From NCBI GenBank assembly GCA_024642775.1, contig JAHEAL010000005.1, forward strand, positions 33,472 to 72,430: DNA of 38,959 nt. The letters are read 5' to 3'. Shown piece after piece: positions 5,790 through 21,386 of this stretch. Source of the DNA: Nitrosomonadales bacterium. Its GTDB lineage: Bacteria > Pseudomonadota > Gammaproteobacteria > Burkholderiales > Methylophilaceae. The position numbers and the translations under genes are program-made. Positions within the stretch are counted from its first letter, which is position 1. Each line of letters begins with the position of its first letter. The notes beneath the pieces are model-generated. The model saw only the letters and a program-made list of their open reading frames with translations. It was not told where the DNA came from and ran no database searches.

Positions 5790-7136
5790 TTGATAAGTTT
5801 ATTTGCTCTTTTTGTAAATTTATACGCCTTTTCTGATGATAAAGATCTATTCCAGCTTTATCAAGAAGCACTAGCAAATGACCCAATGCTTTCTTCTGAG
5901 AGATACCAAAATGAAGCCGTTAAAGAATTAGTAAATCAAGGCCGAGCACTTTTTTTACCAACGGTTTCAGCAACAATGAATTATGATGATCGAAACCAAG
6001 CACGAAAATTTTTAAATACGGATGCTTCCTTGGGCAGTAGTTTGTTTACCAGAGGAACCAAGGCGGATTATGATGCATATGGTTACTCGGTAATAATTAG
6101 ACAACCATTGTTTAATTACTCAGCTTTTTCTACGTATAAAAAAATCTTATCCCAAACAAGCTTAGCGGATAAGAAATATCATTTGGTGCAACAAGATTTG
6201 ATGATGAAGTTATCTGAATTGTATTTTGATGCTTTATTAGCAAAGGATAAGGTTGAATTAATTCAAGCACAAAGATTGGCTATTAATGAGCAACTTAAAG
6301 AAGCGGAAGTTAAGTTTGATGCAGGACTAATTTCTATAACTGATATTAATGAAGCAAAAACGAAGAATGACTTAATGGAAATTGATTTGTTAAATGCTGT
6401 TAAGGATTTAAAAATAAAGAAAAGACAAATTCAGGCAATTACTGGAAGTTTGCCGGGGCGTTTAAAGCCATTGATGAGCTCAATAGCTTTTGAAAAAATG
6501 GACAACCTTCCAGAAGAATGGGTAGATATTGCTATGCAAAATAGCACAGCTATTTTGATTAAAGATTCAGAAATTGATGTGGCACAAAAAGAAATTGATG
6601 TAAGAAGAGGTGAATACTTTCCAACAGTTGATGCTTTGGCTTCGAGACGAAGAACATGGGATAAGGGAGGCTATGCTTTTGGTTTGAGGAATTATTCGGA
6701 TACTTTTGGGGTAGAGGTTAGCATTCCAATTTTTGAGGGGGGATTAACAAGCTCAAAAGTCAGAGAAGCAGAGTTACTTAAAAATAAGACCATACAAGAA
6801 TCAGAAGGATTGAAAAGACAGGTTGAGCTTCAGGTCAGGGAGTCTTACTTGAAACTTCAAACCAATTTATCTGAAATAGAAGCTTATCAACAGGCATTAC
6901 GCTCATCTGAATTACAATTACAGTCGACGCAACTTGGTTTTCAAGAAGGGTTGCGAAACAGCGTGGAGGTCTTAAATGCTCAGCAAATGTTATTTTCGGC
7001 TACTTATGATCTTTTGGCGTCAAGATATCATTATTTATTAAATCTGTTAGACTTGAAACACAAGGTGGGCACTTTGTCTGTCCAAGACATAGAAGATATA
7101 AATAAATTTTTAATGGTTGATGCAAATGAAAGCTGA
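5790..7136 (+). CDS. TolC family outer membrane efflux/secretion protein
   Basis: A protein of about 448 residues with the two OEP repeats of TolC: N-terminal LYQEALANDPMLSSERY, the strand-helix region QARKFLNTDASLG, YDAYGYSVIIRQPLFNYSAFSTYK, the second repeat ADKKYHL...ELYFDALLAKDKVELIQAQ, then YSDTFGVEVSIPIFEGGLTSSKVREAE and QLGFQEGLRNSVEVLNAQ. It forms the outer-membrane channel of type I secretion or RND efflux systems. The start is uncertain: the frame has no ATG or GTG. TTG 5790 is the usual choice but gives a signal peptide without a positive n-region; reading from ATT 5766 or ATT 5772 would add Arg-Phe-Lys ahead of the hydrophobic ILISLFALFVNLYAFS. It overlaps the next gene by 17 bases. 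Confidence 0.93.
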   Translation: MISLFALFVNLYAFSDDKDLFQLYQEALANDPMLSSERYQNEAVKELVNQGRALFLPTVSATMNYDDRNQARKFLNTDASLGSSLFTRGTKADYDAYGYSVIIRQPLFNYSAFSTYKKILSQTSLADKKYHLVQQDLMMKLSELYFDALLAKDKVELIQAQRLAINEQLKEAEVKFDAGLISITDINEAKTKNDLMEIDLLNAVKDLKIKKRQIQAITGSLPGRLKPLMSSIAFEKMDNLPEEWVDIAMQNSTAILIKDSEIDVAQKEIDVRRGEYFPTVDALASRRRTWDKGGYAFGLRNYSDTFGVEVSIPIFEGGLTSSKVREAELLKNKTIQESEGLKRQVELQVRESYLKLQTNLSEIEAYQQALRSSELQLQSTQLGFQEGLRNSVEVLNAQQMLFSATYDLLASRYHYLLNLLDLKHKVGTLSVQDIEDINKFLMVDANES

Positions 7137-7680
7137 AATTCAAAGAAGTCAATTGGTTATTGTAGACATGCAAGAAAAACTTGCTGGCGCAATGCCAAAA
7201 GAAGTGATCAATAAAATTATTCGACGAATAGAACTTATTGCAACTCTGGCAAAAATTGAAGAGATTCCTGTTGTTGTAACTGAGCAGTATCCTGTCGGCC
7301 TTGGCAAGACGATCTCAAGCATGATTCCATTTTTGACTCATGCTCAATTTATCGAGAAGACGACATTTTCGTGCGTTGATGATCCAAAATTTAATACAAA
7401 GTTAATTGAGACTAGAGATCAGATAATTCTGGCTGGAACCGAGTCACATATTTGTATTCTTCAAACAGCGTTAGATTTAGTAGACCAAGGAAAGAAAGTT
7501 TATATTCTTGAGGATGCTATTGTTTCACGCAATATATTAAATAAACAAAATGCTATTTTTAGATTAAGAGATGCGGGTTGTATTTTGACGAATGTTGAGT
7601 CTATTGTTTTTGAATGGCTAGGAGATTCGAATAATCCAAATTTTAAGAAGATTGCTCCACTAATTAAAGATATTTGCTAA
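7120..7680 (+). CDS. isochorismatase-fold cysteine hydrolase
   Basis: A 186-residue cysteine hydrolase of the isochorismatase superfamily. The catalytic triad is visible as Asp16 (IVDMQEKL), Lys80 (FIEKTTFSC) and Cys112 (AGTESHICILQTALDL). The start at ATG 7120 (or 7126) lies inside the tolC 3' end, so the genes are translationally coupled. The protein resembles the YcaC/hydrolase subgroup rather than nicotinamidase or true isochorismatase; its substrate is unknown. Its stop overlaps the convergent waaA by 17 bases. Confidence 0.85.
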   Translation: MQMKAEIQRSQLVIVDMQEKLAGAMPKEVINKIIRRIELIATLAKIEEIPVVVTEQYPVGLGKTISSMIPFLTHAQFIEKTTFSCVDDPKFNTKLIETRDQIILAGTESHICILQTALDLVDQGKKVYILEDAIVSRNILNKQNAIFRLRDAGCILTNVESIVFEWLGDSNNPNFKKIAPLIKDIC

Positions 7681-8914
7681 TCAAGGAAATAATTTTTTCC
7701 TCTCCTTTTTTGTTTTTATCTAAAAAAGTTTTAATATTTTTTTGATAGTTTAAATCATCACCAGATTCAGAAAATTTTTCAATAAAAAAACTTAAATTTG
7801 CTATTTCAATTTGATAAATTATTTTTGCCAATATGGCTTCTTTAATGATGGAAAAGAAATTATAGGTTGATTGACCTACTACCGTAGGTTTGCCCATTAA
7901 CAATGGTTCAATTGGATTTTGTGACCCATAGTCCCCGATGCTTCCACCGACAAAAACTAAATCAGACAAGGCAATGTAATTATTTATTTCCCCCATGGTA
8001 TTCCCAAGAATTAGATATGGGGATGATTTTTTTTCTACTTTTAATTGCGCCATTTTTATATAGCTGAATTTCATTTTTATAAAGATCTTTTCAACCTCTG
8101 AAAACCGATCTGGGTGCCTAGGAACAATAATAAAAGAATATCTGGAAGGATCTAGGTTCTTTATTGAATCCAAAAATATTTTTTCTTCTCCTTTTCTTGA
8201 GCTTATTAGAGAAACGATAAATTTGTTATTCAAGGAAAATTTATTTTTAATGGCAACAATATGTTTGCTATTTACTGCCTCTATGGTCTGATTAAATTTT
8301 AGATTAGACGAGAGTGCTATTTTTTGTTTGGTAATTTTATGAAAATGATCTTTATCAATTTTAGATTGAGCAACAATATGGTTAAATTTAGCAAAAGTTT
8401 CTCTGCTAAAATTTTCAAATTTAAGATACTTATCTAAGGATCGCTTGGAAAGCCTTGCATTAATAAGAATACTGGGTATTTTCCTCTGAGATAATTCATT
8501 TAATAATGATGGCCAAATTTCAGTCTCTAAAAAAATTGCGATACGTGGTTTAAAGTGCCTTAAAAATCGTTTGTTCAAAATAAAGCTGTCAAACGGCAAG
8601 TAAGCTCGATGAACTCTTTTTGACTCAGTTAAGACAACGTTTCTGCCCGTTGGGGTTCCATGCGTAATGAGAAAATCGTAACTGATGTGCTTTTCTAATA
8701 AAAGCTGTAATAAAGTTTTGATCGCTCTGGTTTCTCCTACCGATACGCAATGAAACCAAATTAATTTTTTATTAAAAATTTGAGTCCTGAATATTCCATA
8801 TCTCTCAAAAATGAAATTAAGATAGGCCGGTTGTTTGATGGCTCTGAATAAAAACTTAATCGGTGAGAGAAGAATTAGAAAATGAACAGCAATTTGATAA
8901 ATAAAAAGTCTCAT
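7664..8914 (-). CDS. waaA: 3-deoxy-D-manno-octulosonic acid (Kdo) transferase
   Basis: WaaA transfers Kdo from CMP-Kdo to lipid A precursor at the inner membrane. The 416-residue protein shows an N-terminal membrane anchor (MRLFIYQIAVHFLILLSP), FIFERYGIF, the GT-B N-domain with HCVSVGETRA that contains the proposed catalytic Glu, FLITHGTPTGR, AIFLETEIWPSLL, and the C-domain with SSRKGEE, VPRHPDRF, VFVGGSIGDYGSQNPIEP (nucleotide-sugar binding). I chose ATG 8914 because the family begins with the membrane helix; ATG 8923 in the same frame would add three residues. No kinase is fused, but a WaaP-like domain occurs at 17.2 kb. Confidence 0.95.
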   Translation of the reverse strand: MRLFIYQIAVHFLILLSPIKFLFRAIKQPAYLNFIFERYGIFRTQIFNKKLIWFHCVSVGETRAIKTLLQLLLEKHISYDFLITHGTPTGRNVVLTESKRVHRAYLPFDSFILNKRFLRHFKPRIAIFLETEIWPSLLNELSQRKIPSILINARLSKRSLDKYLKFENFSRETFAKFNHIVAQSKIDKDHFHKITKQKIALSSNLKFNQTIEAVNSKHIVAIKNKFSLNNKFIVSLISSRKGEEKIFLDSIKNLDPSRYSFIIVPRHPDRFSEVEKIFIKMKFSYIKMAQLKVEKKSSPYLILGNTMGEINNYIALSDLVFVGGSIGDYGSQNPIEPLLMGKPTVVGQSTYNFFSIIKEAILAKIIYQIEIANLSFFIEKFSESGDDLNYQKNIKTFLDKNKKGEEKIISLISKYL

Positions 8915-9012
8915 ACAGATCATATTCTACATCTAAAACTATTTTTAATAACGAAGTCATTGTTTTATATGAACAAAATGATTTTTGCACCAAATAGTTA
9001 CAAAAAAATGAA

Positions 9013-9040
9013 TTGACGAACCACAATTAGATGATAATAT
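9013..9040 (+). promoter_or_regulatory. candidate nrdJ promoter (-35 TTGACG, -10 TAATAT)
   Basis: TTGACG (9013-9018) and TAATAT (9035-9040) are spaced by 16 bases. The first NrdR-like box fills the spacer and the second lies just downstream of the predicted start (about 9047). An alternative -10 is TACAAT at 9106-9111, without a good -35. Confidence 0.5.
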
Positions 9041-9070
9041 TATGAATGCAAACCACTACATATTGTGGTT
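9019..9070 (+). promoter_or_regulatory. pair of NrdR-box-like elements upstream of nrdJa
   Basis: Box 2 (9051-9070) is an inverted repeat, AACCAC-TACATATT-GTGGTT, close to the NrdR consensus ACACwATATATwGTGT. Box 1 (9019-9038) starts with the same AACCACA half-site but has a weak second half. The two begin 32 bases apart, about three helical turns, as is usual for NrdR box pairs. NrdR is the ATP/dATP-sensing repressor of ribonucleotide reductase genes. The repeat is seen; the regulator is inferred. Confidence 0.6.
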
Positions 9071-9142
9071 TTAATAAAAAGATAATTTTGGTATATTTAG
9101 TTAAGTACAATCAAATTAATTTAAGTTTTTCAGGGGAAATAA

Positions 9143-17206: not shown

Positions 17207-19393
17207 TTATTTTTTATAAAGAGTTTTCCTAAATCGTTTAAATGAAACATGCAGATCATATTTTAAAAATGTGAATTTATTAAATATAGATAACTTCCTA
17301 TTATTTAACTGAAAGTACTTCTTTAAGAATATATTTCTTACCTCCCAATCAAATTTATTAAGAAGCCTAACCATGTCTGCAAACCTTAATGTTTTTTTAG
17401 CTTGAAAGCTGAGTCGGTTATTAAAATCTTTTATTCGACCAGTATCAATCAGAGAAAAATCAAAGGAGCGATTGGAGATAATAATAATTATATTTCCAGC
17501 AGACAGATCTCTAAAGTAAATTCCACGGGAATGCATCTTATTTATAAACGTGGCACATTGTTCAAAAATCTCTCTTTTAGAGAATCCATGAAATATATTT
17601 TGATTAAAGAAATGCTGCGCTAGATCATTAAAAGTAAAACCCTCAACATAACGAGAAATATAATAATTTTCTAATTGAGACTTATCATTTTTTAAACTGA
17701 ATAGTGCTATAGGATCTGCCGTATTTAAACCCTTATTCAATAGTGACATTGCGCCATTCCATGAACGCATGGACTTATTCGGTTTATTTCGATTTAAAAA
17801 TATTTTGTGCGCATAAATTTTTAAAGGTTTTTTTATAACAACTTTACCGTAGCCTGGAATATTTTTTACCCAAACAGCATTTCTGGATTTTCTTAAAGAG
17901 CTCACTTGATCAGGAACGGATAATATAGATGGGTGACAATGGTTTATGATTAGATCAGAAGTATTCTTATCGTCAGCCTGAATAATTCCGGTCCATTGGG
18001 GGTCGTGTAAATGGAAGTAATTCAACTTAGGATCGACAACAAGATCACTGATCACTTTACCTTTTTGAATTATCGTTGGTCTATCCTGAACATGCCAAAT
18101 TAAGAAATAAGGATTTTCAGTAATAGACTGAATACTTTCAATGTTATTACCTAAATAGTTTTTGATTTCCGCTCTATCAATACTTGTGGGCAAATAAAAA
18201 TCAAAGATATCAGAAATATGACTGTTCATCGTCCATATAACATGAATAACCCGATCATTTTTTTCAAACTCAAGGATTTGAATTTCAGGAATTGATGAAT
18301 AATTTTTAATAAATGTAGAACCCGGAATTAGGCTATTAAAAAATTTACAGGCATAAAAAGATGGTCTATGGGAATAACTCGAAAGATAACCTTTTGCTTG
18401 ATTGTAAAAGGTGACTTGTTCTAGTTCTGGATATTCAGATTCATCGGTGTTATCGTTGATGAGTCCTTCTCTTTGACAAATTAAAGGCCCCCAAAAGATT
18501 TGATCAAAATCTCCCTTAGCGGCGAGCATTGTAAAATAACGAGTCAAATATTTTGCTTGATAGTCCTGTGGATTGTCACGTAATCGACCAATTCTTTTTA
18601 TAGACCAAAACGCATTAGATGAAATGATTTTTTTTATTTCATATTTATTCGATATGAATTTATATATCGAAGATTTTTTATATAAATCAATCTTAAGTAT
18701 CTTAGAAAAAAAACGAGAAAGTACCCGGTGATCGAAAGGTTCTGGCTCAATTGTTCTTTCAGCAAATAAGTTATTTGATTGAGCATCTGTTAATTGATGT
18801 TTATTTTTTAATTGAGCAAGAATCCCAAAGTTAACATGCGGTTCAAAATCAGTAATATTTGGGCCGATGATTCTTCTGTTATTTAACTTAACGATATGGT
18901 ACGCGACACTCCATATTCTAAAAAAACTCTTGTAGGGCAAGTTGGTCCATGATTTTCTATTTATAGTACTTCCAATTTCAATATCAAAAGGAATATGTCT
19001 GAATTCGTTAAAAAATTTTGTAATAAAATTTTTCCAAACCAATAAACCACTCTCGGTTGAAATTAAATGTGCTTCTTCAGGAGGTACGCTGAGATTAACA
19101 ATCAGTTTGCCATTAAAGTTTTTGCATTTGTTAATGATTCTCTGTTTGTGGGTATTAAAATCTTTATAGGAAAAATAAATTCTCAGATTTTTTATGCTTA
19201 ATTCTTGAATTTTATTAAAAATATATTCATCAGTTTCTTCATTATCATTACTTGCAATATTAATGCCAACAAAATCAGAGGGAACAAGATGAGGGCGATT
19301 GGGTAATTCTTTATTGCTAATTGAAGAAAAAAAGTAAAAGTATAAAAATTTACTTAAGTAGATAAGATTTTTACTAATTTCTCGATTCTTCAT
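17207..19393 (-). CDS. fusion of glycosidase-like TIM-barrel region and WaaP/Kdo-kinase-like domain
   Basis: A 728-residue protein without a clear signal peptide (a hydrophobic patch at about 12-24). Residues about 38-400 resemble clan-A glycoside hydrolases of the GH39/cellulase type (DFVGINIASNDNEETDEYIF, KNLRIYFSYKD, FDIEIGSTINRKSW, DFDQIFWGPLICQREG). At the place where an active enzyme would carry a W-N-E acid/base motif, residues 139-146 read EIGSTINR, so activity is doubtful. Residues about 500-700 are a kinase fold of the WaaP/Kdo-kinase/InaA group: VVIKKP (Lys521/522), YFRDLSAGN (Asp629) and LIDTGR (Asp650, DFG position). It overlaps the LTA-synthase-like gene as ATGA. The kinase fold is clear; the barrel is moderate; the joint function is unknown. 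Confidence 0.8.
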   Translation of the reverse strand: MKNREISKNLIYLSKFLYFYFFSSISNKELPNRPHLVPSDFVGINIASNDNEETDEYIFNKIQELSIKNLRIYFSYKDFNTHKQRIINKCKNFNGKLIVNLSVPPEEAHLISTESGLLVWKNFITKFFNEFRHIPFDIEIGSTINRKSWTNLPYKSFFRIWSVAYHIVKLNNRRIIGPNITDFEPHVNFGILAQLKNKHQLTDAQSNNLFAERTIEPEPFDHRVLSRFFSKILKIDLYKKSSIYKFISNKYEIKKIISSNAFWSIKRIGRLRDNPQDYQAKYLTRYFTMLAAKGDFDQIFWGPLICQREGLINDNTDESEYPELEQVTFYNQAKGYLSSYSHRPSFYACKFFNSLIPGSTFIKNYSSIPEIQILEFEKNDRVIHVIWTMNSHISDIFDFYLPTSIDRAEIKNYLGNNIESIQSITENPYFLIWHVQDRPTIIQKGKVISDLVVDPKLNYFHLHDPQWTGIIQADDKNTSDLIINHCHPSILSVPDQVSSLRKSRNAVWVKNIPGYGKVVIKKPLKIYAHKIFLNRNKPNKSMRSWNGAMSLLNKGLNTADPIALFSLKNDKSQLENYYISRYVEGFTFNDLAQHFFNQNIFHGFSKREIFEQCATFINKMHSRGIYFRDLSAGNIIIIISNRSFDFSLIDTGRIKDFNNRLSFQAKKTLRFADMVRLLNKFDWEVRNIFLKKYFQLNNRKLSIFNKFTFLKYDLHVSFKRFRKTLYKK

Positions 19394-21300
19394 TGAGGCG
19401 GTAGTTTGTATAATTTTTCACTATAGAGGATGCTTGGTAAAAGTGCATAAGCTAATTGCTTATCATAGTTTATCTCAGCCAATTCGCTTGGCCTAATTTC
19501 TGAATTCTTAAAGTCATACGATCCGAAAAAAACTTCCTTATTCGGCTTTAGAACAACTAACTTATCTTTTTCAAGCCAAGCAAAATTATCATAGTATTGC
19601 ATGAGCGCTCGCCCTTTATATTCTCTGTTAATACTACTCATGTCAGTTCCAATCAATGGGTGGTAAGCTTTTATGCCAGCCAAAGAAAGCAACGTTACTG
19701 GCAGATCGATTTGACTTGTCAACGCATCAATATTTTTTGGCTTTATGCCTCCACCTATGATCAGACCAGGAATATGAAAATTCTTAATTGGTATTAGGTG
19801 ATCACCTCTAACGCGGATGTCATGATCTGCTACGATCAAAAAGATCGTGTTATCCCAATAAGAGCTATTTTTAGCTTTTTTAATAAACTCACCCAACGCA
19901 TAATCAGAATATTTGACGGCATTTTTTTCAGTATTATGCGGTTGTTCATAAAGCTCTATTGTATTCTCAGGAAATTCAAATGGTGCATGGTTTGAGGAAG
20001 TAAAAACCAGACTAAAAAAAGATTTATTACGGTTTGATAAATCTAAAAAATGTTGATGAGCTTTGTCATATAAGTCTTCATCTGATGCGCCCCAACTCCC
20101 TTTAAACTTTGGATTTTCATAATTTTTTTCTTCGATGATTGTTTTAAAGCCATTCCCTGTGAAAAAGTTACGCATATTATCAAAATGAGCTTCTCCACCA
20201 TAGATAAAGCTTGTTTCGAAATCTTTCGACCCTAATAATGAAGCTAAGGTGAAAAAATTGGATTGAGATAGAGGCAGCTTTACCGCACTTTGTGCAGGGG
20301 TTGGGGGAAATCCAGAAACAACTGCTTCAATTCCTCTAACCGATCTTGTACCTGTTGCATATAATTGAGTGAACCATATTCCCTCGTTTTTAAGTTCCTC
20401 TAGGTTAGGTGTCACAGCCACGCCACCAAGTGAACCAACAAATGTGGCACCAAGACTTTCTTGAAGCAGGATGACAATATTTTTGGGACTTCCTTTGTAG
20501 GTTGGTTCAAGTAATTTTTTTGTTGGAAATTCAGAAGGGCCATTTTGTCCGGTTAACTCATAAACCTTTGATGAATCTAATTTTCCATAAACTTCAGCAG
20601 CATTTGATTCGTGAGTTGTGCTGTAAGCTGCATAGAAGACGGAGTAGCTTGAATTAAGTACTAATGAATTGACCATAGCATTATCTGTAATAGCAAACAT
20701 TGCTGGATTGGCTGGTCTGTGTCCAAAGCTGGAGCGAATAGAAAGTATCATTAATACAATCATGAATGGCCAGAGGATTAAATGTTTAAAATTAAATGTG
20801 GAGTCAATGCTGTATTGAAATTTTTTGTAAACAAATCTTCCAAGAACCCCAATCGAAAAAAAGACGAAAATAATATCCAGGAAAAAGCCTTTAAATAACA
20901 TTGAAAATACTTCTTGCGGATACTTTAAATATTCAATAAATAAAATATTCGGCCTGGTGTTGTATTCCATGACAAAAGTCGGTGTGCAAGCTTCAATAAT
21001 TATTAAAATCATCAAGCTAACTAGAATCCAAAATCGTAAAATTAGTTGGTAAACTTTTTGGGATTTTTTGCCTATACAGTTAATGGGGAGGAGTAGCATG
21101 GGAATTATGAACATAAGCCCTAGCTGAATAAAATCTACCCTAATGCCATTGAAGATAATTTCTAAAATTTGACCGGTTTCATTTACTGGCTGAAATTGCC
21201 AAACTAATAACCCAATTCTGGAAAGAGTCAAAAAAGATAAGCCAAATAAATAGGCTTTAACAAATAAAAAATATGGATTATTTCTTGTGAGAATTTTCAT
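19390..21300 (-). CDS. LTA synthase family (phosphoglycerol/phosphoethanolamine transferase-like) protein
   Basis: A 636-residue inner-membrane enzyme with five predicted membrane helices in residues 10-190 and a periplasmic sulfatase-fold domain (about 265-630). The active site is visible: metal ligand Glu281 in ILLQESLGA, the nucleophile Thr (316 or 318) in YATGTRSVRGIEA, and the metal site VADHDIR. Such enzymes transfer phosphoglycerol or related groups from a lipid donor to a glycan or lipid. In Gram-negative bacteria they include OpgB-like and similar transferases. It overlaps the next gene by 4 bases (ATGA), so the fusion kinase is its probable partner. Confidence 0.9.
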   Translation of the reverse strand: MKILTRNNPYFLFVKAYLFGLSFLTLSRIGLLVWQFQPVNETGQILEIIFNGIRVDFIQLGLMFIIPMLLLPINCIGKKSQKVYQLILRFWILVSLMILIIIEACTPTFVMEYNTRPNILFIEYLKYPQEVFSMLFKGFFLDIIFVFFSIGVLGRFVYKKFQYSIDSTFNFKHLILWPFMIVLMILSIRSSFGHRPANPAMFAITDNAMVNSLVLNSSYSVFYAAYSTTHESNAAEVYGKLDSSKVYELTGQNGPSEFPTKKLLEPTYKGSPKNIVILLQESLGATFVGSLGGVAVTPNLEELKNEGIWFTQLYATGTRSVRGIEAVVSGFPPTPAQSAVKLPLSQSNFFTLASLLGSKDFETSFIYGGEAHFDNMRNFFTGNGFKTIIEEKNYENPKFKGSWGASDEDLYDKAHQHFLDLSNRNKSFFSLVFTSSNHAPFEFPENTIELYEQPHNTEKNAVKYSDYALGEFIKKAKNSSYWDNTIFLIVADHDIRVRGDHLIPIKNFHIPGLIIGGGIKPKNIDALTSQIDLPVTLLSLAGIKAYHPLIGTDMSSINREYKGRALMQYYDNFAWLEKDKLVVLKPNKEVFFGSYDFKNSEIRPSELAEINYDKQLAYALLPSILYSEKLYKLPPQ

Positions 21301-21355: not shown

Positions 21356-21386
21356 AAAAAAAGGGTGTATTTTCATACACCCTTTT
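21356..21386 (-). terminator. intrinsic terminator of the glnK-amtB operon
   Basis: On the minus strand: GGGTGTAT, loop GAAA, ATACACCC, then a run of seven T, with four further A-T pairs outside. It lies 38 bases after the amtB stop. The loop is a GNRA-type tetraloop. Confidence 0.92.

Follow-up and report, generated by a model that had tools for sequence, protein, structure and literature searches.

A glycosidase-like barrel fused to a WaaP/Kdo-kinase-like domain in Methylophilaceae, with a possible role at the lipopolysaccharide core

The locus and the fusion gene

The window, a stretch of 38,959 nucleotides from a Nitrosomonadales bacterium of the Methylophilaceae (GCA_024642775.1, contig JAHEAL010000005.1, positions 33,472 to 72,430), carries at 17207–19393 (−) a gene in which a glycosidase-like barrel is joined to a WaaP/Kdo-kinase-like domain. 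This fusion gene is an open reading frame (ORF) of 728 amino acids (aa), with an ATG start and without an internal stop. Its start codon overlaps by four bases (ATGA) the stop of the upstream gene at 19390–21300 (−), which encodes a 636-aa LtaS/VP1736-like sulfatase-fold transferase, from here on the partner. The only family above its cut-off in the fusion protein was PF06293 (Kdo/WaaP), found in the C-terminal part with 29.1 bits (Pfam gathering cut-off 21.3). Neither Pfam nor NCBIfam matched the N-terminal part at E ≤ 1. A survey of open-access PMC text, covering the top of two long result lists and the whole of the shorter ones, turned up no account of a fusion protein of this kind.

A profile scan of genome contigs reported 225 relatives, the best 80 of which (L054–L133) were kept. 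A scan of the same contigs with the single protein as query gave no match. From the 80 loci, ORFs of >770 or <700 aa, or >78% identical to one already kept, were dropped, leaving 49. L094, which may run off its contig, was then removed and the window protein added, resulting in a 49-row alignment. The AlphaFold2 model built from this alignment had a mean pLDDT (predicted local distance difference test) of 91.8 and a pTM (predicted template modelling score) of 0.92, and we set the domain limits ourselves from its DSSP string.

All parts of the fusion gene lie on the minus strand. A poorly conserved N-terminal helix (residues 1–34; 19292–19393), delimited by DSSP and hydropathy, is followed by a GH39/PslG-like beta/alpha barrel (residues 35–358; 18320–19291), recognized from DSSP, Foldseek and hhalign. 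Behind the barrel, as in PslG, the model and Foldseek placed a beta-sandwich (residues 359–470; 17984–18319). A linker with a helix (residues 471–500; 17894–17983) then leads to the WaaP/Kdo-kinase-like domain (residues 501–700; 17294–17893), and a C-terminal helix (residues 701–728; 17210–17293) closes the model.

The initial annotation, made from the sequence, had proposed an N-terminal glycosidase-like barrel and a C-terminal WaaP/Kdo-like kinase, and both were recovered. The model contained a TIM barrel, and in Foldseek searches against the PDB the first rank was taken by PslG (5bx9, GH39), with an E-value of 6.2e-15, 459 alignment columns and a TM-score of 0.68 by target length. GH30 and GH39 enzymes came after it. 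The first kinase on the list was WaaP (6dfl), at rank 18 (E 8.5e-8), which was also the best PDB sequence match of the family profile (E 2.1e-5). PF06293 matched all 49 aligned homologues at E ≤ 0.01.

Two separate genes joined by a sequencing error, the case that the initial annotation had raised against itself, were ruled out. In 80/80 loci the match was covered by a single ORF, allowing for 400 bases at either end, and the frame was open in 83 of the 84 Methylophilaceae genomes with the fusion, the remaining one having a fragment only, at a contig end (G145). In addition, 18 homologues aligned over nearly the whole length with 33–58% identity, showing that the fusion is not due to chance.

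The barrel, the kinase domain and the predicted location

The barrel is of the (beta/alpha)8, GH39/clan GH-A type, and none of the 49 rows matched a Pfam glycosidase family (E ≤ 0.01). To this barrel profile, three PF01229-matched proteins, two of them over the cut-off, were aligned by hhalign. The FEIWNEPN motif of the GH39 proteins fell on FDIEIGSTIN, placing the acid/base glutamate at T143, within the EIGSTINR motif at the end of strand beta4 (residues 139–146; 18956–18979). This agrees with the earlier suggestion that EIGSTINR replaces the acid/base signature. Position 143 held Thr in 47 rows, Ala in one and Val in one, while E139, N145 and R146 of the same motif were invariant (49/49).

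The nucleophile glutamate was lost as well. Its position was located with the help of five stand-alone barrels (L146–L150), the closest barrel relatives found, whose profile matched the fusion barrel with E 1.9e-21 (hhalign) and which share the NR-x-x-W and DFEP motifs with it. Their WITEFNW motif fell on WNTESGW of a GH39 protein and on IISSNAFW of the fusion, so the nucleophile position is N260, at the end of strand beta7 (18614–18616). This position had Val in 19 rows, Ala in 17, Ser in five, Asn in three, Cys in three and Gly in one, and the last row did not have Glu either (0/49). Between positions 255 and 265, Glu occurred solely at 255, in six rows. With Glu absent from both positions, the barrel has probably lost its glycosidase activity. 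In the stand-alone barrels, which have no kinase, Ala has taken the acid/base position while the beta7 Glu is still there, so that the losses look stepwise. PslG of Pseudomonas aeruginosa (5bx9, 4zn2, 9g17), a GH39 endoglucanase, has the same combination of barrel and beta-sandwich, and keeps the catalytic E165 and E276 and a predicted signal peptide, according to the excerpt consulted (PMC7237758). The fusion, in contrast, has neither Glu, shows no export signal and has a kinase attached.

The pocket of the barrel was strongly conserved. The mean Jensen–Shannon conservation was 0.653 in the loops of the catalytic face, where the barrel strands have their C-terminal ends (117 positions), compared with 0.524 on the other face (38 positions), 0.543 in the helices (144) and 0.569 in the strands (21). 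None of 20000 position shuffles reached the gap between the catalytic-face loops and the other face plus helices, a figure that overstates the certainty, as neighbouring positions are not independent. Five glutamates at or just past the strand ends (E139, E184, E212, E218 and E309) were invariant in 49/49 rows and may allow an unusual catalytic use. The lost catalytic glutamates together with the conserved pocket fit binding in place of cutting, and we infer that this half binds a glycan.

The stand-alone barrels are unannotated proteins of 348–394 aa from genomes of the class (L146:6697–7743, L147:1156–2232, L148:6752–7846, L149:1723–2826 and L150:6600–7784), and by sequence they matched no solved structure at E ≤ 10. 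Four of the five adjoin a trmB-like gene, in three cases with a thiG-like gene beside it (gene names by reading).

In the kinase domain, seven residues were invariant in 49/49 rows: K521, D629, G633, N634, D650, R653 and D673. K521 (17831–17833) is the ATP-binding lysine, DLSAGN (residues 629–634; 17492–17509) the catalytic loop and DTGR (residues 650–653; 17435–17446) the metal-binding loop, the latter corresponding to D188-L-H-R191 of WaaP. From the kinase residues singled out in the initial annotation (Lys521/522, Asp629 and Asp650), K522 did not hold, with Gln in 36 rows and Lys in 13. The HRD motif has an invariant Phe (F627) in place of the His found in WaaP. Pseudokinases often lose one of the Lys, the catalytic Asp/Asn or the metal-binding Asp.

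Mapped by motif and hhalign, K521, D629, D650 and R653 are K51, D163, D188 and R191 of WaaP (RfaP), with which the fusion shares the kinase fold and profile. In the section of the WaaP study available to us, the K51A, D163A, D188N and R191A variants gave no growth, and WaaP has H168 where the fusion has Asn (PMC6147952). Unlike WaaP, the fusion has some 480 additional N-terminal residues, which make up the barrel and the sandwich. It scored 13.2 bits with the NCBIfam equivalog for the WaaP heptose(I) kinase (NF011703; cut-off 170). We filed it as a member of the WaaP/Kdo-kinase kind that deviates at the alphaC residue, and not as a glycosidase.

A simple hydropathy test indicated no signal peptide or transmembrane segment, as no row had a 19-residue window of ≥1.6 before residue 37 (0/49, maximum 1.34). 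Such a window was present anywhere in the protein in only one of the 49 rows. From the lack of a hydrophobic N-terminus, the fusion protein is read as probably cytosolic, where ATP is.

Distribution, partner and gene neighbourhoods

The fusion was found in 84 of 187 Methylophilaceae genomes, from ten genera, confirming the expectation that the same domain order exists elsewhere in the family. Any match to the fusion query at E ≤ 0.001 was found in 100 genomes; the other 16 comprised 13 genomes of the genus g43 with barrel-only proteins and three with short kinase matches. In the genus of the window, the fusion was missing from 22 of 31 genomes. The identity to the window protein was 55–58% inside this genus and 33–38% outside. 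In an even sample of the class, 34/370 genomes matched at E ≤ 1e-5, and five of them, the window's own included, had the full length. In a phylum-wide sample, only three of 397 genomes matched at E ≤ 1e-30, two of them Methylophilaceae, indicating that the family is restricted. The best 80 of the 225 relatives came from Methylophilaceae, Methylophaga, Porticoccus, Microbulbifer, Halopseudomonas, Rhodocyclaceae and their kin, and one metagenome-assembled genome labelled Lentisphaerae. A phage or plasmid origin was rejected, with no PHROGs match at E ≤ 0.01 and no match in 72,556 plasmid records at E ≤ 1e-20.

A tree of 84 rows was calculated with a quick method, after trimming L133 and L115 to their last 745 residues (their ORF starts were too early). 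Most rows clustered by taxon. Methylobacillus flagellatus grouped with Methylophaga and Porticoccus (99%), pointing to some transfer. The genus of the window has a long branch and a skewed composition, so the deep forks are unsure. The ratio of non-synonymous to synonymous substitution rates (dN/dS) was 0.11 and 0.10 in two independent close pairs (L037 and L054 are the same genome), the only pairs on which the estimate of selection on the fusion rests, as dS was saturated for most others.

The g43 genomes encoded a 399-aa barrel-plus-sandwich protein without a kinase (L048:5992–7191, L049:5686–6885 and L050:5700–6899, all on the plus strand). In L048 its gene lies between amtB-like and mltA-like genes (by reading), the site of the gene pair in the window. 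Of the 40 invariants of barrel and sandwich, 16–17 are left in these proteins. Their dN/dS of 0.05–0.14 despite the lost invariants suggests that they keep a kinase-free role.

The partner was assigned to its family by PF00884 (E 3.8e-48), and its closest solved relative is VP1736 (PDB 3lxq, E 3.8e-153), labelled uncharacterised by its depositors. Its best NCBIfam matches were phosphoglycerol transferases, at 81 bits far below the cut-off of 572. From its family, the partner would be membrane-anchored, with a periplasmic site. A terminator-like hairpin in the gap between amtB and the partner (21359–21386, −), a consensus match only, with four such sites found and 2.5 expected from shuffles, would make the fusion and the partner a transcription unit of their own. 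For a Stutzerimonas protein of the lipoteichoic acid (LTA)-synthase family, possibly akin to the partner, disruption raised a cyclic diguanosine monophosphate (c-di-GMP) sensor, as reported in the text excerpted from PMC12125118.

We drew the orthology line for the partner at 500 bits, where the scores drop from 551.7 to 265.3 bits. By this measure it was present in 80 of the 187 Methylophilaceae genomes, each of which also had the fusion. Four of the 84 fusion genomes lacked it (G067, G072, G206 and G209), and these were 76, 48, 78 and 99% complete, respectively. Partner and fusion were adjacent on the same strand in 70 genomes (gap 0–180) and apart in 10. The partner was not among the matches in the 22 fusion-less genomes of the window's genus, nor in any g43 genome. 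In the class sample, 13/276 genomes had it, the window's own and one further fusion genome included. Within Methylophilaceae the partner never occurs without the fusion, and the fusion sometimes occurs without the partner, which fits a kinase step coming first.

To look for lipopolysaccharide (LPS)-core genes around the fusion in the 80 loci (up to ~7 kb per side, less at contig ends), ten reference proteins were used as tblastn queries (E ≤ 1e-15). NCBIfam supplied the gene names, with 530.8 bits for heptosyltransferase II, 363.2 for heptosyltransferase I, 447 for RfaP and 795.2 for MsbA. An LtaS-like ORF lay directly upstream of the fusion in 44 loci. None of these 44 had a core gene, with one ABC-transporter match (L116). 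Among the 36 loci without a neighbouring LtaS-like gene, 11 had LPS-core or msbA genes (L068, L107, L112, L115, L119, L124, L125, L128, L129, L132 and L133). L118, with a 203-aa kinase alone, and L062, with a weak ABC-transporter match, were not counted, and the remaining 23 had nothing.

In Halopseudomonas pertucinogena the gene order was waaF, waaC, a WaaP-like kinase, the fusion, GT4, WaaP and two kinases, so that this locus holds both the fusion and a true WaaP (447 bits). By its position, the GT4 gene of the core clusters would be waaG. GT4, WaaP, kinases and msbA were found near the fusion in four Rhodocyclaceae-type loci (L107, L115, L125 and L128). In Methylobacillus flagellatus, waaC (5877–6917) overlaps the fusion (6914–9136) by four bases, and the fusion lies between the core genes and a grpE-like gene; in the window's genome the grpE-like gene and waaC adjoin, without the fusion between them. 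In two further genomes of the class (L153 and L154), GT4 and WaaP lay near the fusion, in one case together with waaC. From the 11 loci with LPS-core or msbA genes, the context points to the LPS inner core as a candidate substrate.

A possible function at the LPS core

Our best reading, which we place slightly on the probable side, is a cytosolic kinase of the LPS core that uses a pseudo-glycosidase as its reading head and, possibly, has a partner that caps its product. The dead half would probably hold the sugar to be phosphorylated by the kinase half. At the inner face of the inner membrane, the WaaP/Kdo-kinase-type domain would phosphorylate a nascent, lipid-linked glycan, with the heptose-containing LPS inner core as the most likely acceptor. 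By gripping the glycan, the pseudo-glycosidase half would present the acceptor sugar to the kinase, and phosphate would thereby be added only where the right glycan is present. After export, in Methylophilaceae, this phosphate would be the probable acceptor site for the LtaS/VP1736-like partner, which could cap it with phosphoglycerol or phosphoethanolamine.

A precedent for phosphorylation followed by capping is the pair of WaaP and EptC in Escherichia coli, the latter being periplasmic and a member of the alkaline-phosphatase superfamily. The heptose I (HepI) phosphate made by WaaP accepts phosphoethanolamine, with EptC required, according to the portion consulted of PMC6358824. As in the order proposed here, a kinase-made phosphate is later decorated by a transferase; the E. 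coli pair differs in having no pseudo-glycosidase. A more specific version, a two-step decoration of the LPS core across two compartments, in which the pseudo-glycosidase reads the core glycan and licenses the attached cytosolic kinase, and the periplasmic partner adds a phosphoglycerol cap that lends the LPS a teichoic-like charge, is less probable. Decoration of this kind is not known to have been described before.

The initial annotation had suggested that the barrel may bind rather than cut a glycan, and that the protein phosphorylates a glycan or glycolipid or directs the kinase to it. The lost glutamates, the conserved pocket, the WaaP-type kinase and the LPS-core loci make this plausible. 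The absent alphaC Glu speaks against it, and the partner gene had not been mentioned there.

Several results weigh against the LPS-core kinase. WaaP E78, the alphaC Glu, aligns with S544 (hhalign with six WaaP sequences), a position with Ser in 46 rows and Ala in three. Position 550 nearby has Glu in 42/49 rows, yet Ser in the window protein. In WaaP itself, E78A was crippled and not dead, in the portion of PMC6147952 consulted. With the alphaC Glu thus replaced, the kinase may be atypical, another residue possibly standing in. The hhalign match between the barrel and the GH39 proteins had a probability of 51% and an E-value of 1.6e-4, and the alignment is weak outside the motifs used. In the flanking DNA covered, no reference LPS-core gene accompanied the fusion of Methylophaga, Porticoccus and Microbulbifer, nor that of most Methylophilaceae loci. 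The window's genome encodes, in addition to a heptosyltransferase I, two further PF06293 proteins over the cut-off, one of them WaaP-like and beside waaC, so the substrate of the fusion need not be heptose I. Regarding the partner, Fisher's test of co-occurrence (1.2e-48) ignores ancestry and covers one family. Outside Methylophilaceae the link was loose, with the partner in 6/11 fusion genomes (8/13 tested, two being Methylophilaceae), and 11 of the 12 other partner-bearing genomes of the class sample had no full-length fusion, so that there another acceptor would be needed.

A lesser possibility is that the same machine works on a non-LPS substrate, a glycolipid or glucan such as an osmoregulated-glucan or teichoic-like precursor, subsequently modified by the partner. 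The tightest association in Methylophilaceae is indeed with the LtaS-like gene and not with LPS genes, and the phosphoglycerol transferases among the partner's distant matches would suit it. The core neighbourhoods in Halopseudomonas, the Rhodocyclaceae-type loci, Methylobacillus flagellatus and the two further genomes argue for the LPS core instead, as does WaaP being the nearest solved kinase.

It is unlikely that the barrel is still an enzyme, cutting or transferring sugars through its other pocket acids, with the kinase marking the product. The five invariant glutamates and the pocket loops, the most conserved part of the barrel, would agree with such an activity, and PslG, itself a glycosidase, belongs to a cluster for polysaccharide synthesis (PMC9075953, in the part consulted). 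However, of the two clan GH-A Glu positions one holds Thr in 47/49 rows and the other mostly Val or Ala, with Glu at neither, and the acid/base Glu is lost in the five stand-alone relatives too.

Slightly less likely still is a pseudokinase joined to a pseudo-glycosidase, forming a scaffold, structural or regulatory, that serves LPS assembly and transfers no phosphate. The missing alphaC Glu and the persistence of the g43 barrel-only versions under purifying selection are consistent with a scaffold. The Lys, the catalytic-loop Asp and Asn, the metal-binding Asp and the next Arg, all invariant in 49/49 rows, argue for an active kinase. An anti-phage or protein kinase without a link to glycans is very improbable, and a defence kinase was rejected: the PADLOC PD-T4-6 models matched only weakly (best E 1.5e-5) and eukaryotic-type kinases appeared in phmmer (best E 0.0044), against which stand PF06293 as the sole family above cut-off, a gene common across whole genera and absent from the plasmid records, and the fusion of the kinase to a glycosidase-type fold.

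If the LPS-core kinase reading is true, a dead glycosidase has found a new use in a sugar kinase, as its substrate reader. A family of 225 reported relatives (of which the best 80 were examined), carrying no glycosidase annotation, would gain a suggested role, and so would the Gram-negative LTA-synthase-like proteins of the VP1736 type. The fusion is present in named isolates of Methylobacillus and Methylophilus, making these ideas directly testable.

Further kinase-like genes were seen in the same genomes. In the LPS-core clusters of L153 (11351–13588) and L154 (11402–13627, by tblastn), WaaP is followed by further kinase-like domains in one protein of 741–745 aa. In L119 a 203-aa kinase-like protein (2272–2883) is encoded directly upstream of the fusion and next to msbA; it matched nothing in Pfam (E ≤ 0.1) or NCBIfam (E ≤ 1e-5), and a relative with 28% identity is present in the window's genome (L166:7182–7898). 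The window's genome also has a 563-aa ORF (L164:5858–7549) with a GT2-like start (by reading) and WaaP-like sequence in its C-terminal part.

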